Part shown: in pieces, positions 9,354 to 49,135 of the stretch
Layout: each line of letters opens with the position of its first letter
Numbering within the stretch: the first letter of the stretch is position 1
Source: Cloacibacillus evryensis DSM 19522
Lineage (GTDB): Bacteria; Synergistota; Synergistia; Synergistales; Synergistaceae
DNA length: 64,000 bases
Assembly (NCBI RefSeq): GCF_000585335.1
Contig: NZ_KK073872.1
Location: 847,317 to 911,316 of the forward strand
Direction: 5' to 3'
The notes under the pieces: generated by a model
Seen by the model: only the letters and a program-made list of their open reading frames with translations
Databases searched by the model: none
Told to the model about the DNA's origin: nothing
Translations under genes and position numbers: made by a program

Positions 9354-9408
9354 AAAAAAACCCTTCCGTCTTTTCTGTTCCGAAACGGACAGAAGAGACG
9401 AAAGGGGA
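9354..9408 (-). terminator. Terminator of the T-box leader
   Basis: Read on the minus strand, CCCCTTTCGTCTCTTCTGTC pairs imperfectly with GACGGAAGGG-containing sequence, followed by seven T residues (A-run at 9354-9360 on the plus strand). It lies just after the T-box sequence and 90 bp before the transporter start, so the T-box decides whether transcription continues. Confidence 0.85.
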
Positions 9409-9643
9409 AGGCTTCCGCGGTACCACTCTTCATTCATTCTAAAAAGAATGCTCTTATAGGGGATACAGACATATCCCCGCCGCTGTAACGGGCGGCCGCC
9501 CGTCTGCGCTTACTGAAAAACTTCTGCGCAGCCGCTCCGTGACGAGTTCGGCAGCATACTCTTCGGATACCTTGCACCAACCGGCACCTCTCTGGATCGG
9601 TATGGCCGCCTACTACTTCACATCATTGCGTTGATCTCAACGA
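9354..9643 (-). promoter_or_regulatory. T-box riboswitch leader (likely Leu, CUC specifier)
   Basis: On the minus strand the leader holds all T-box landmarks in order: AGUAGUA on the 5' side of a specifier loop, CCAGAGAGGTG (AG bulge region), GGTTGGTGCAAGG (distal loop), then GCTGCC-GAACTCG, a strong hairpin GGGGATA..TATCCCC (stem III), and the T-box AGAGTGGTACCGCGG at 9416-9430, followed by the terminator. The GGCGGC/GCTGCC helix places GAA-CTC in the loop opposite AGUAGUA. The specifier would be CTC at 9544-9546 (minus), which is leucine. TGGT in the T-box pairs with an ACCA tRNA end, as in tRNA-Leu. Confidence 0.9.
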
Positions 9644-45651: not shown

Positions 45652-45718
45652 TGAAATGCCGGCCCTTTGCGAAGGCGGCTGCGCGGGCTGCCCGATAGCG
45701 AAACAGGAGGCGAAAAAA

Positions 45719-46174
45719 ATGGAAAATACCAGCGGAATGAACGTAAGCGAAAAAATGCTGCGCGAGATCGTGACCGAGGTCGTGCAGAGCATGGCCGCCC
45801 GCCAACCGGCCACAGGCGGCTTCACGAAGATCGTGGACCCGAGCGGCATAATCCTCATAAAAAGCGAAACGGTCAAGTGCGAGCCCTTTCACGGCGAGGC
45901 GGGAGTGAAACTCAAAGACGTCGTGACGCTCGAAGAGGCGCCGCGCATCGGCGCCGGGATCATGGAGCTGGACAGGACGAGCTTTGAGTGGACCCTCACC
46001 TACGACGAATACGACGTCGTATTCGAGGGCGTTCTCGAAATAGAGATAGACGGCCGCGTAGTCACGGGCAAGCCGGGAGACATCATCTACATCCCGAAGG
46101 GGAGCCACATCCACTTCCGGACGCCCGACAAGGCGAGGTATGCGTACTTCGTTTATCCCGCCAACTGGCAGTAA
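45719..46174 (+). CDS. eutQ: EutQ cupin domain with N-terminal encapsulation helix
   Basis: 151 residues from ATG 45719, which has AGGAGG 8 bp upstream. Residues 8-23 (EKMLREIVTEVVQSMA) are an amphipathic targeting helix. Residues about 60-150 are the EutQ cupin (MELDRTSFEWTLTYDEYDVV, EGVLEIEIDGRVVTGKPGDI, IPKGSHIHFRT). The EutQ N-terminal domain is missing here and appears as its own gene at 41895. The frame is open upstream to ATG 45656, giving a Cys-rich extension, but that start has no ribosome site. Confidence 0.92.
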   Translation: MENTSGMNVSEKMLREIVTEVVQSMAARQPATGGFTKIVDPSGIILIKSETVKCEPFHGEAGVKLKDVVTLEEAPRIGAGIMELDRTSFEWTLTYDEYDVVFEGVLEIEIDGRVVTGKPGDIIYIPKGSHIHFRTPDKARYAYFVYPANWQ

Positions 46175-46178
46175 CACT

Positions 46179-46308
46179 GTAAATCGGCGTTTATAAGCAC
46201 GATTTGCGTCATAACTTAGGGCTCTGGCGTCCTCGCCGTATTAATATACGGCTCCGGTTCCAGAGCCCTAAGTTATTTAGCAACTCGCACTTCTAAACGC
46301 CGATTTAC
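46179..46308 (+). repeat. Covarying hairpin element, copy A (after eutQ)
   Basis: A 130-bp imperfect palindrome that starts 4 bp after the eutQ stop. Outer stem GTAAATCGGCGTTTA / TAAACGCCGATTTAC, then conserved strands GCGTCATAA and TTATTTAGC around a second helix with one T-C mismatch, a variable stem CTTAGGGCTCTGG / CCAGAGCCCTAAG, and a terminal GTAT-TAAT-ATAC hairpin. Copies B and C keep the skeleton but change the stem letters in a compensating way. Confidence 0.88.
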
Positions 46309-46418
46309 GCGATTGCGGGGGAAGAGAAACTGGGATTTAGCGGGCACCCACAAAAAACAATATGTCGATATTCAGCGATTTTAATTTATGCCTTTAAAGG
46401 CCCCCTCCCCGAGGCGGC

Positions 46419-46639
46419 CAGGGAGCCAAATCAGTGTTTTTCTGATTTGTGCGAATCGGCTGGTAGTTACACCAGGGCTGGCTCGGCGGTGTTTTTCCGC
46501 CGAGACTGGAGGAGTTTTGACCTTGGGTTTTGTTTTAATTCAGACCAGAAAAACAAAACTCAAAGTCAACCCTCCTCCACCGGCTTCGCTGGAGCTAAGC
46601 GACTCGCACAAAACGAAAAAACATCGTTTTGGCTCCCTG
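46419..46639. repeat. 221-bp imperfect palindrome
   Basis: CAGGGAGCCAAA (46419-46430) matches the complement of 46628-46639; between them 46508-46536 and 46550-46578 are 29-bp arms ending at GGAGGAG / CTCCTCC, and a nested CTCGGCGG / CCGCCGAG hairpin sits at 46482-46504. A further copy of GGGAGCCAAA lies at 46652-46661. No believable protein is encoded. The interval between elements A and B otherwise shows nothing recognisable. Confidence 0.8.
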
Positions 46640-46734
46640 CTTATCGGAGAGGGAGCCAAAGGTCTTAGATAAATCGCAGTTTATCTTTCTCCTCTCCCAA
46701 AGGAAATCAACAATAGCAGTTTTGCATAATAACA

Positions 46735-46865
46735 AAAAATCGGCGCGAAGAAGTGCCGTAGGCTAAATAAGCCGGTCTCTGAGTACCGGAGCCGTATTCT
46801 CCATACGGCGAGGACACTCAGGGGCCGGCTTATGACGCATACGGTGCTTATTCGCGCCGATTTTT
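46735..46865 (-). repeat. Covarying hairpin element, copy B (after metQ)
   Basis: A 131-bp copy in minus orientation, 17 bp past the metQ stop on metQ's own strand. Outer stem AAAAATCGGCGCGAA / TTCGCGCCGATTTTT. On the minus strand it reads ATAAGCAC, TGCGTCATAA, variable stem GCCGGCCCCTGAG, GTCCTCGCCGTAT hairpin, then TTATTTAGC and GCACTTCT, matching copy A in all conserved strands. A separate TAAACGCCGATTTAC at 46866-46880 repeats copy A's right arm. Confidence 0.88.
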
Positions 46866-46882
46866 ATAAACGCCGATTTACA

Positions 46883-47659
46883 TTAGAAGGCGGGAATGAC
46901 CCCCTTGGAGCCCAGCTTTTCGGTGATGAACTTTTTCACTTCGGGCGAATTTAACGCCTTGGCGAGCGCCTTTATCTTCGCGCTGTTCTTGTCGCCGCTG
47001 CGGCAGGCGAGCACCACCGCGTAGGGGGAATCCTTCGATTCGAGCGCGAGGGCGTCTTTTGAGGGATCAAGTCCCGCGTCTACGGCGAAGTTCATGTTGA
47101 TGACGGAGATGGTCGTGTCGGGGAGCGTGCGCGGGAGCTGCGGCGCTTCGAGCTCTCTTATTTTAAGCTTTTTGGGGTTCTCGACGATGTCGGCGGCGGT
47201 CAGCTTGTTGCCGGGCTTCATCTTCAGCAGTCCCTCGCGTTCAAGCAGCTTATAGGCGCGGAAGCCGTTGGTCGGATCGTTGGGGACCGCGACGACCGCC
47301 TTTTCTTTGACATCCTTCAGCGACTTTATCTTCTGCGAATAGATGCCGATGGGCAGGAGGTGGACCTTCACGAGCGGCACGATGTCGAGCTTCTTTTCGC
47401 TCTTCATGTTCTCAAGGTAGGGGATGTGCTGGAAGAAGTTGGCGTCGAGGCTTTTGTCCTCCAGCGCGTAATTCGGCTGCACAAAGTCGGTGAATTCTTT
47501 GATGTCCAGTTCGTAGCCCTGTTTCGCGAGCACCTCTTTGGCGACGTCGGCGATCTCCTTCGCGGGGAAGGGGGTGACGCCGAGGACGATCTTTTCCGCC
47601 GCGCAGGCCGACGACGATATTACCAGCAACGCTAAAACCGCGAGAAAAACTTTTTTCAC
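46883..47659 (-). CDS. metQ: MetQ/NlpA-family methionine-binding protein
   Basis: 258 residues from GTG 47659, which has GGAGG 7 bp upstream. Residues 1-22 are an export signal (VFLAVLALLVISSSACAAE); the cysteine lies at a lipobox-like site but lacks the usual Leu at -3. The mature chain has LGVTPFPAKEIADVAKEVL, NYALEDKSLDANFFQHIPYL and VAVPNDPTNGFRAYKLLE, MetQ/NlpA signatures. The MetN ATPase and MetI permease genes are not beside it. Expression is predicted to be attenuated by an upstream leader. Confidence 0.93.
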   Translation of the reverse strand: MKKVFLAVLALLVISSSACAAEKIVLGVTPFPAKEIADVAKEVLAKQGYELDIKEFTDFVQPNYALEDKSLDANFFQHIPYLENMKSEKKLDIVPLVKVHLLPIGIYSQKIKSLKDVKEKAVVAVPNDPTNGFRAYKLLEREGLLKMKPGNKLTAADIVENPKKLKIRELEAPQLPRTLPDTTISVINMNFAVDAGLDPSKDALALESKDSPYAVVLACRSGDKNSAKIKALAKALNSPEVKKFITEKLGSKGVIPAF

Positions 47660-47770
47660 AATGATACCTCCAGTAAGATTTAATATATTTATCTGCGTAT
47701 TTATATTGAAAACCGCTTCACCGTCTTTTGAACCGCAAAGTCCCCCTTCCGCCAAGACTTCAAAAGACAT

Positions 47771-47806
47771 AAAAAAGGACCGGCCCCGCAGCGGCGGACC
47801 CGGTCC
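47771..47806 (-). terminator. Attenuator terminator upstream of metQ
   Basis: On the minus strand GGACCGG (47806-47800) pairs with CCGGTCC (47783-47777) through a GC-rich stem and is followed by six T residues. It lies 19 bp after the leader peptide stop and 112 bp before the metQ start, inside the metQ transcript. A second inverted repeat, GTCTTTTGAA / TTCAAAAGAC (47723-47768), follows it. Confidence 0.88.
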
Positions 47807-47824
47807 TGTAACGACAACGCGTGC

Positions 47825-47908
47825 TTAAGCGCCGGCCATTTCAGGAGAGGACCCGCAGTGAGCGCACATCATCATGTACATTATCGAAGAACAGTTTATC
47901 AAATACAC
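47825..47908 (-). CDS. Met/Cys-rich leader peptide of metQ
   Basis: A 27-codon frame on the minus strand. It starts with GTG 47908, has GGAGG exactly 7 bp upstream, and ends with TAA 47825. The product has Met at 10, 12, 13, 14 and 24 (core IMYMMMCAHC) and Cys at 6, 15 and 18. It lies between the metQ promoter and the terminator. Clustered Met codons are what a ribosome-stalling attenuator for methionine would use. A small functional protein is the alternative. Confidence 0.72.
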   Translation of the reverse strand: MYLINCSSIMYMMMCAHCGSSPEMAGA

Positions 47909-47960
47909 GGCGTTTCCTCCTTTCCTCCAAAATGGACGCTGAAAAATCATTGGGGATGAT

Positions 47961-47988
47961 TTTATACTCAACGGTCTGGAAATGTCAA
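47961..47988 (-). promoter_or_regulatory. metQ promoter
   Basis: TTGACA (47988-47983) and TATAAA (47966-47961) on the minus strand with a 16-bp spacer. The transcript would start near 47954, 46 bp before the leader peptide start. Confidence 0.82.
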
Positions 47989-48119
47989 GCACGTCGATCA
48001 TTATTTTGGCGGGCCGGTGTTAAAAGTCTTTAGCAGAAGAGACTGAGCATGCAGTGCTATGCCTGAAAAGCGGATTTGTATTATAATAGAAAAAGTTATA
48101 AAAAATTAGGAGTGTTCTT

Positions 48120-48656
48120 ATGAAAAAGATATTCATCATCGCGTTGTTTTTACTTTTTGCCTGCGCGGCGGCCGCTTCCGCCGCCTCTCCGTGGTCGCCG
48201 AAGGCGGGGGAGTATTGGATCAAGGTCAACAAGCAGCAGCTGCGGCTCACGCTCTTTAAGGGCGGGGAGGTCGTCAAGAGCTGGCCTGTCTCCATCGGCA
48301 AGGGGCGCGGCAAGGTCAAGAGCTCGCGCCTGGATCTGATCACGCCGACGGGGACTTTTACCATTTACAGGGTCATTCCCGACGCCACAAAGCTTGTATT
48401 TGACCCCGCGTGGTTCGATGAACCGGGAAAGGCCGCCCCGGGAGCCTATGGCTCAAAGCTGATCTCTTTTTACAACAAGTGGGAGATCGCGATCCACGGG
48501 ACCAACAATCCCGGCTCTGTGGGGCGATGGGCGACGCACGGCTGCATCAGGCTCAAAAATCCCGATATCGAGGACCTCGTAAACTATGTCAAGCCGAAGA
48601 TGAAGATCGTGATCGTCGAAAACAACGATATACCGTTTTTGAAGGAGACGATATAA
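48120..48656 (+). CDS. L,D-transpeptidase (YkuD domain)
   Basis: 178 residues. Residues 1-21 are a signal peptide. The rest is one YkuD domain with the catalytic motif HGTNNP followed by THGCIRL (His and Cys in register). These enzymes form 3-3 cross-links in peptidoglycan or attach proteins to it in the periplasm. TATAAT at 48082-48087 is a plausible -10 box and TAGGAG is the ribosome site. Confidence 0.92.
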   Translation: MKKIFIIALFLLFACAAAASAASPWSPKAGEYWIKVNKQQLRLTLFKGGEVVKSWPVSIGKGRGKVKSSRLDLITPTGTFTIYRVIPDATKLVFDPAWFDEPGKAAPGAYGSKLISFYNKWEIAIHGTNNPGSVGRWATHGCIRLKNPDIEDLVNYVKPKMKIVIVENNDIPFLKETI

Positions 48657-48713
48657 TCAGCGGATGGATCGGCGTCGCTTATGAAATAAAAATTGAAAGG
48701 AGGCGGTACGCCC

Positions 48714-48938
48714 ATGAGTCGCGCATTTGTGAAAGAGGATGACGGAGAACGCGGAAACGCCGTCGCCGACATACAGTTCCGCGAGGAGAAGGTCGAGTGG
48801 CTCCGGATACAGGAGAAGAAGCTAGACACGTTGCTGAACGACCCGAAATCAAAAAAGATAAAGCCGGAGACGCTCGCCCGCTGGATAAAGGAGACCGAGG
48901 CCGACATTACTAAGACGAAAAAAGAGCTAGGTTACTAG
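48714..48938 (+). CDS. Small conserved-looking hypothetical protein
   Basis: 74 residues from ATG 48714, with AGGAGG upstream. It begins MSRAFVKEDDGE, an opening I also associate with GreA-like and other small proteins, then forms two charged helices (EEKVEWLRIQEKKLDTLL and KPETLARWIKETEADITKTK). No membrane segment. Probably cytosolic and helical; function unknown. It is 57 bp after the transpeptidase gene and may be co-transcribed. Confidence 0.65.
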   Translation: MSRAFVKEDDGERGNAVADIQFREEKVEWLRIQEKKLDTLLNDPKSKKIKPETLARWIKETEADITKTKKELGY

Positions 48939-48945
48939 TGAACCA

Positions 48946-49061
48946 CTGATTATATGCACCATCCGCGTCACAAGCAGCCCCCGACCGAGGCTCCAACGTA
49001 TTAATATACGCCTCCGCCCCGCTCGGGGGCTGCCTGTTTAGCGGCTGGTACATCTAATCAG
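48946..49061 (+). repeat. Covarying hairpin element, copy C
   Basis: A 116-bp copy starting 8 bp after the stop of the preceding plus-strand gene. Outer stem CTGATTA / TAATCAG, helix ACCATCCGC / GCGGCTGGT with the same central T-C mismatch as in A and B, conserved GCGTCACAA and TGTTTAGC strands, variable stem GCAGCCCCCGA / TCGGGGGCTGC, and terminal CGTATTAATATACG. It is the most diverged copy, and nearly all changes in stems are compensated. Confidence 0.85.
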
Positions 49062-49135
49062 CGGACGATACGTCAGGTTTTATATGGCAAAGAGAATTAA
49101 TCAATAGTTCTATAGGGATAAATAACTATCTGACA

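Follow-up and report, generated by a model that had tools for sequence, protein, structure and literature searches.

A stretch of 64,000 nucleotides of the Cloacibacillus evryensis DSM 19522 chromosome (contig NZ_KK073872.1, positions 847,317 to 911,316; the window) contains three long hairpins, copies A, B and C, each placed just beyond the stop codon of a gene. The question raised by this locus is what such a hairpin does there. The first-pass annotation of the window offered two answers: an RNA structure selected in 3' untranslated regions (UTRs), or a mobile palindrome that is folded when it is recognised. The copies were found to belong to a dispersed family with a unit length of about 130 bp, a repeated, strongly conserved structure present in many unrelated bacteria. 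It is a real, widespread and structurally conserved element, working like a folded-strand recombination site docked at stop codons.

Family and consensus structure

Searches were centred on the window's own genome (G000, 3.49 Mb) and a sister species of the same genus (G001), and genome-wide statistics were computed on extracted loci. A DNA search of G000 with copy A gave many dispersed copies, several of them 98–100% identical at unlinked sites. The search of the genome and its relatives with a covariance model, suggested at the first pass, was performed with a model of ten copies (R1) and gave many further copies: about 54 places in G000 and about 53 in G001 (matches after manual merging of two-strand hits), with matches in 14 of 61 related genomes. 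A broader model (R2, 41 sequences) matched 33 of 188 genomes of the phylum, nearly all from one family. The tip motif was present in at least 116 stretches among 84,980 species genomes; the matches listed include Desulfobacterota, Clostridia, Treponema putidum, Bdellovibrio, Planctomycetes, Acidobacteriota and others. Full-length elements were confirmed with R2 in many of the tip-motif genomes outside the phylum; the highest number of matches in one genome was about 26.

The consensus structure was calculated with RNAalifold from 41 copies from 11 genomes (pairwise identity below 86%, mean column identity 59%). It comprises 40 pairs, 36 of which have changes on both sides. The fraction of paired cells was 89.3%, compared with 60.9% when the 3' letters were shuffled and 28–38% when the partners were slid, the slide control being biased in favour of the structure because the structure was derived from the same alignment. 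The covariation score was 0.708 versus 0.209 for the control, with counts that refer to sequences and not to independent events. In the wide alignment the unpaired strands read 5' (G/T)TC(A/G) opposite TTTA, TTTC or CTTC, and the tip consensus is TCCTCG(A/C)CGTAT..ATACG(C/G)CTCCGG. The pattern first described from three copies, in which stems vary in letters yet stay paired while the unpaired strands are fixed, was upheld by this larger alignment. The copies form one structural family with stems free to change letters and with fixed internal loops and tip.

Position at stop codons

Distances to stop codons were counted with a simple open reading frame (ORF) finder. 66 of the 107 copies in G000 and G001 start between −20 and +13 nt from a stop codon that ends an ORF of 100 amino acids (aa) or more on the same strand, compared with 3.3% of random positions in the same loci and 3/107 when element 3' ends were set against opposite-strand stops. 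Stop codons are likewise occupied by 20 of 26 copies in eight other genomes and by 5 of 20 in G004, where a C-type unit has been amplified. Beyond the phylum, 14 of 33 matches lie, by our own reading, at −20 to +16 from a stop that ends a same-strand ORF of 100 aa or more, two of the 14 coming from a record (L297) that resembles a misassigned Synergistota contig. Placement at 3' ends in the orientation of the gene, as proposed from the window, is borne out by these counts and extends to other phyla.

The element has a TAA near its own start, which accounts for some of the stops in the +5, +19 and +37 class. Stop docking as an artefact of this TAA shortening ORFs was rejected: many ORFs reach their end no later than the start of the element. 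The upstream genes are complete by Pfam/NCBIfam (ketol-acid reductoisomerase, 1–332 of 337; decarboxylase beta subunit; ThiC; MreC; FtsK with its gamma domain; pyruvoyl arginine decarboxylase), and copies in other phyla often follow full-length housekeeping genes (thiC, mreC, ftsK). The last codons and stop of ilvC lie inside the outer stem of the element in two genera. The junction at the stop was read from filled and empty sites, TTCTAG|AAATCGG in G001 (filled) versus TTCTAAAAAACACG in G000 (empty), and from a second comparison, AAAATAAGGTAAATCGG in G000 versus AAAATAAGATAACTAT in G001. The next gene after the 66 stop-docked copies is co-directional in 36 cases and convergent in 30, the same as at control gene ends, which rules out restriction to convergent gene pairs. 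The element starts at the stop of otherwise ordinary genes, in the orientation of the gene, in several phyla.

Strand preference

Both strands of 103 non-redundant copies were folded. The strand opposite the gene folded better in 102 with DNA parameters (mean −7.3 kcal/mol) and in 101 with RNA parameters (mean −11.4 kcal/mol); the mean strand difference for random 132-mers was −0.4. On the sense strand A.C oppositions (G.T on the antisense strand) numbered 306 versus 93 G.U, some of the A.C/G.T positions being fixed in the family and so not all independent. The bias towards the antisense strand recurred in 11 of 11 copies tested from other phyla. The better-folding strand is the one opposite the gene.

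This asymmetry bears on two RNA explanations. The first posits transcription of the antisense strand, giving a structured RNA with its end, or its site of action, at the 3' end of the adjacent gene. The antisense advantage with RNA parameters is in line with such a transcript, as are G.U-type pairs, about 6% of pairs on that strand, and the purine-rich internal loops GAA/GAA and GGAG/CGAGG with tandem G.A pairs; but outside the outer stem the aligned copies have no promoter-like flank in common, the tip loops of the antisense strand are neither GNRA nor UNCG, Rfam gives no match, and no systematic antisense transcript is expected since the next gene is so often co-directional (36/66). An antisense RNA is considered unlikely, and folded DNA is preferred to it because neither a conserved promoter-like flank nor a GNRA tip is present.

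The second explanation is a terminator or exonuclease blocker in the 3' UTR of the sense mRNA, spread by gene conversion, which we regard as very unlikely. The element does follow the stop directly in sense orientation, its sense strand also folds strongly and some sites are common to different genera (sodium-pump decarboxylase beta subunit, ilvC). Set against this are the poorer fold of the sense strand in 102/103 copies, the absence of the element from some genes in neighbouring species, and the 3' foot, which carries five or more T in only 11 of 153 copies; the intrinsic terminator was rejected on this last count. At site C the sister species has no element and an ordinary terminator soon after the stop, and in G000 the gene's own terminator is retained, now downstream of the element. 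Of the two readings proposed at the first pass, the selected 3'-UTR structure is thus disfavoured by the antisense fold, the scarcity of T-runs and the terminator still present at site C, and the mobile palindrome folded on recognition is the better supported.

Turnover of copies

An element is carried by 15 gene ends in both species, with flanks 82–92% identical; about one shared site would be expected by chance (own estimate), and one set of guessed syntenic windows recovered only part of the orthologous sites. At these 15 sites the elements are 0.56–0.84 identical between species and mostly of different subtypes, and the same elements are 0.95–1.00 identical to their best paralogue in their own genome. 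B-type copies lie within the relic of an older 5' arm, and chimeric and tandem copies occur. Sites therefore last longer than the elements on them, which are renewed by gene conversion or replacement. Within a genome copies increase in number, and one variant takes the place of another at a site that stays occupied.

Target duplications were found in one relative only: 12 of 18 C-type units in G004 are flanked by exact 4-bp duplications (CTAA, TTAG, TTAA, TAAA, ATAA, CTTA, CAAA), and the units have inverted repeats at their ends. None was seen in A-type copies of G000/G001 (33–43 copies per test). The G004 units would fit an ordinary miniature inverted-repeat transposable element (MITE) moved by a DDE transposase, its stop position resulting from a YTAR-like target containing TAA or TAG together with selection against other sites. 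As an account of the whole family this is quite unlikely. It does not agree with the lack of duplications in the main genus or with the absence of DDE_Tnp_1 (PF01609) from G001, G004, G008, G010, G015 and G026 (other DDE families and autonomous copies were not searched), and the conserved internal loops and strand bias are left unexplained. Nor does transposition alone yield stop docking, since only 5/20 copies in G004 are at stops. Mobility of the palindrome as such is supported by near-identical unlinked copies, swaps at shared sites, tandem copies and the 4-bp duplications in this relative.

Comparison with known elements

Integron attC sites are folded on the strand opposite the gene, lie right after its stop in the orientation of the gene, and vary in their stems while unpaired features are kept. 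The present element follows the same logic (antisense fold, stop-codon placement, fixed unpaired bases, no target duplication in the main genus). That its copies are themselves scattered attC sites is nevertheless extremely improbable: RYYYAAC and GTTRRRY are both missing from the termini in 152 of 153 copies, carriers have no integron integrase, and copies are scattered after housekeeping genes, not in cassette arrays. Membership was rejected on the missing core boxes and integrase.

REP/RAYT and IS200/IS605 hairpins are also recognised as single strands; unlike these, G000 and several other carriers have no Y1 transposase. The ERIC, RPE, Correia and RUP MITEs are imperfect palindromes of 100–170 bp, dispersed, mostly intergenic and lineage-restricted. 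Our element resembles them as a dispersed imperfect palindrome of comparable length; we know of no exact stop-codon docking or antisense-strand fold among them. To our knowledge, none of the known repeat classes considered predicts a fixed-loop hairpin at gene 3' ends with a fold on the non-coding strand.

No Rfam family scored above its gathering threshold for the element. No description was found in the literature, and a search by core sequence gave unrelated matches only; most subscription journals were outside the search, so that this absence is not proof. The impression of an undescribed element holds to that extent. The nearest published idea is OTH-22-1, an attC-like motif predicted to form structured DNA, with 1887 members and RYYYAAC at the 5' terminus (PMC8632094). 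Like our element it occurs in many phyla as a predicted single-stranded-DNA structure and is not annotated as attC, but our copies are without RYYYAAC; the comparison is with its description in the text, and a distant relationship is possible. Two further repeats were likewise compared by description. YPAL/RU-2 of Yersinia, a folded mobile repeat of 168 bp for which filled and empty sites are known, differs in having target duplications of 3–26 bp, and the review lists it only for Yersinia and Erwinia (PMC2229807). QMITE2 of Coxiella burnetii, a 150–190 bp stem-loop mainly at ORF 3' ends, differs in its 7–11 nt direct repeats and GTAG REP core (PMC5896051).

Candidate enzymes

Four enzyme families were searched for in carriers. 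Y1 transposase (PF01797) is missing from G000, G004, G015, G026 and G033, and mobilisation by REP/RAYT or IS200/IS605 enzymes was rejected on this ground. DDE_Tnp_1 was rejected as the driver because several carriers lack PF01609. Integron integrase (TIGR02249) was above the cut-off only in G041, a genome without copies. The reverse transcriptase domain (PF00078, RVT_1) is absent from G002, G004, G008, G010, G015 and G033; since several of the carriers without it are rich in copies, mobility by reverse transcription, including template jumping onto mRNA ends, was also rejected.

Two of these searches gave incidental matches. An integron integrase proper (294 bits) is encoded at G041:C2:299469-300414, in a different family of the same order. 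G000 has reverse-transcriptase domains at 1290437-1292941, 1662474-1663094, 2348959-2349579 and 451523-452144, about 1–2 kb downstream of copies and in repeat tails; these are probably group II introns.

Interpretation

We tentatively read the element as mobile DNA without coding capacity: a hairpin of about 130 bp, carried on the chromosome and recognised in the form of a folded single strand. This interpretation is given a little under an even chance. A recombinase or host factor would bind the folded antisense strand and, once bound, would copy or swap elements between gene ends. The logic would be that of integron attC sites, with a chemistry and an enzyme that are not those of integrons.

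Several observations weigh against a mobile folded strand. No enzyme is linked to it: Y1 transposase, integron integrase, reverse transcriptase and DDE_Tnp_1 all fail to track the element. The exact tip motif was not found in viral contigs, and no match was obtained in plasmids with two elements from other phyla as probes or in phages and E. coli with one such element, which is unusual for a mobile element. Ordinary gene conversion could account for the swaps at shared sites, and templated repair of quasi-palindromes can also yield compensatory changes. The antisense strand has G.T pairs in numbers that would suit an RNA, and the 4-bp duplications of the C-type units in G004 point to a classical transposase there.

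The wider proposal, a new multi-phylum class of mobile or exchangeable elements that are folded as single strands, dock at chromosomal stop codons and use recombination machinery outside the known hairpin-recognising systems, is possible but doubtful. In several phyla a fixed-loop hairpin marks the precise 3' end of unrelated housekeeping genes, in one orientation and folded on the non-coding strand. This implies one of two things: a mobile element with an unrecognised way of locating gene ends, or a stop-codon-tied function acting through the template strand. The covariance model now permits the element to be searched for elsewhere.

Copies in the window

The positions and strands first given for copies A, B and C are correct, as is their common skeleton, and each adjoins the stop of a same-strand gene. 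Fold energies are −76, −75 and −68 kcal/mol for A, B and C, with z values against dinucleotide shuffles of −12.5, −9.8 and −8.8, far beyond the shuffled controls. The conserved T-C mismatch is present but is one of two, as T.C and C.A mismatches also occur in the outer portion of the stem. The features are as follows.

45656..46174, + strand: EutQ-like gene; its stop precedes copy A, and the sister-species orthologue is followed by a different element variant
46178..46309, + strand: copy A (subtype A), after the EutQ-like gene; outer stem GTAAATCGGCGTTTA/TAAACGCCGATTTAC, inner stems, tip CCTCGCCGTAT..ATACGGCTCCGG
46310..46340, + strand: tail of copy A (CGATTGCGGGGGAAGAGAAACTGGGATTTA-type), a repeated module 3' of many copies in G000
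46734..46866, − strand: copy B (subtype B), downstream of metQ
46867..46881, − strand: 5' outer-arm relic (GTAAATCGGCGTTTATA) left by an older element; lies between copy B and the metQ stop
46883..47662, − strand: MetQ/NlpA lipoprotein gene; its stop at 46883 precedes copy B, and the sister species also has an element here, of a different variant
48693..48938, + strand: 81-aa ORF with its TAG stop abutted by copy C; no element at this site in the sister species
48937..49067, + strand: copy C (subtype C), overlapping the TAG stop of the 81-aa ORF
49068..49115, + strand: C-unit tail, ending in a degenerate inverted copy of the C outer arm (AATTAATCA...CTATAG)

Copy B is 17 nt from the metQ stop because the older outer-arm relic intervenes.

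Associated repeats

A structured module of about 83 bp (GCGGCAAACGCACCCGCATGCTGC...GTTGCCTTGCAA) is inserted in the hairpin tip at one fixed point (CCT^CG) in L013, L014, L029 and L182 (G001); it was found in several subtypes, often in hairpins that are themselves chimeric. A second module (GGTGAACAAA...CGATTCACAC...GGTTCACTGCTTAT), without a match in Rfam, lies before the 3' outer arm with variable cargo of up to about 190 bp (L006, L007, L022, L030). Related to it and common in element tails is the repeat at 46388-46672 of the window, between copies A and B (GGCTCCCT...GGGAGCC, with paired modules CGAxTCGCACAAA...TTTGGCTCCCTG). TGTCATGCCGGGCTTGACCCGGCATCCAG...GGCTCCGGCTCGGAGGCCGGAGCGACGG repeats in the tails of many copies (e.g. 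L003 and L016) form part of intergenic mosaics.

About 15 copies are present in T. putidum (G188, L268) at 2576053-2643918, all on one strand and spaced by 1–5 kb, with repeat-rich gene fragments on the opposite strand. Several of these fragments share one hairpin base and differ in the protein sequence downstream, an arrangement that resembles a cassette junction. Elsewhere in the window, a T-box leader (Rfam RF00230, 123 bits) is located at 9391-9635 on the − strand.

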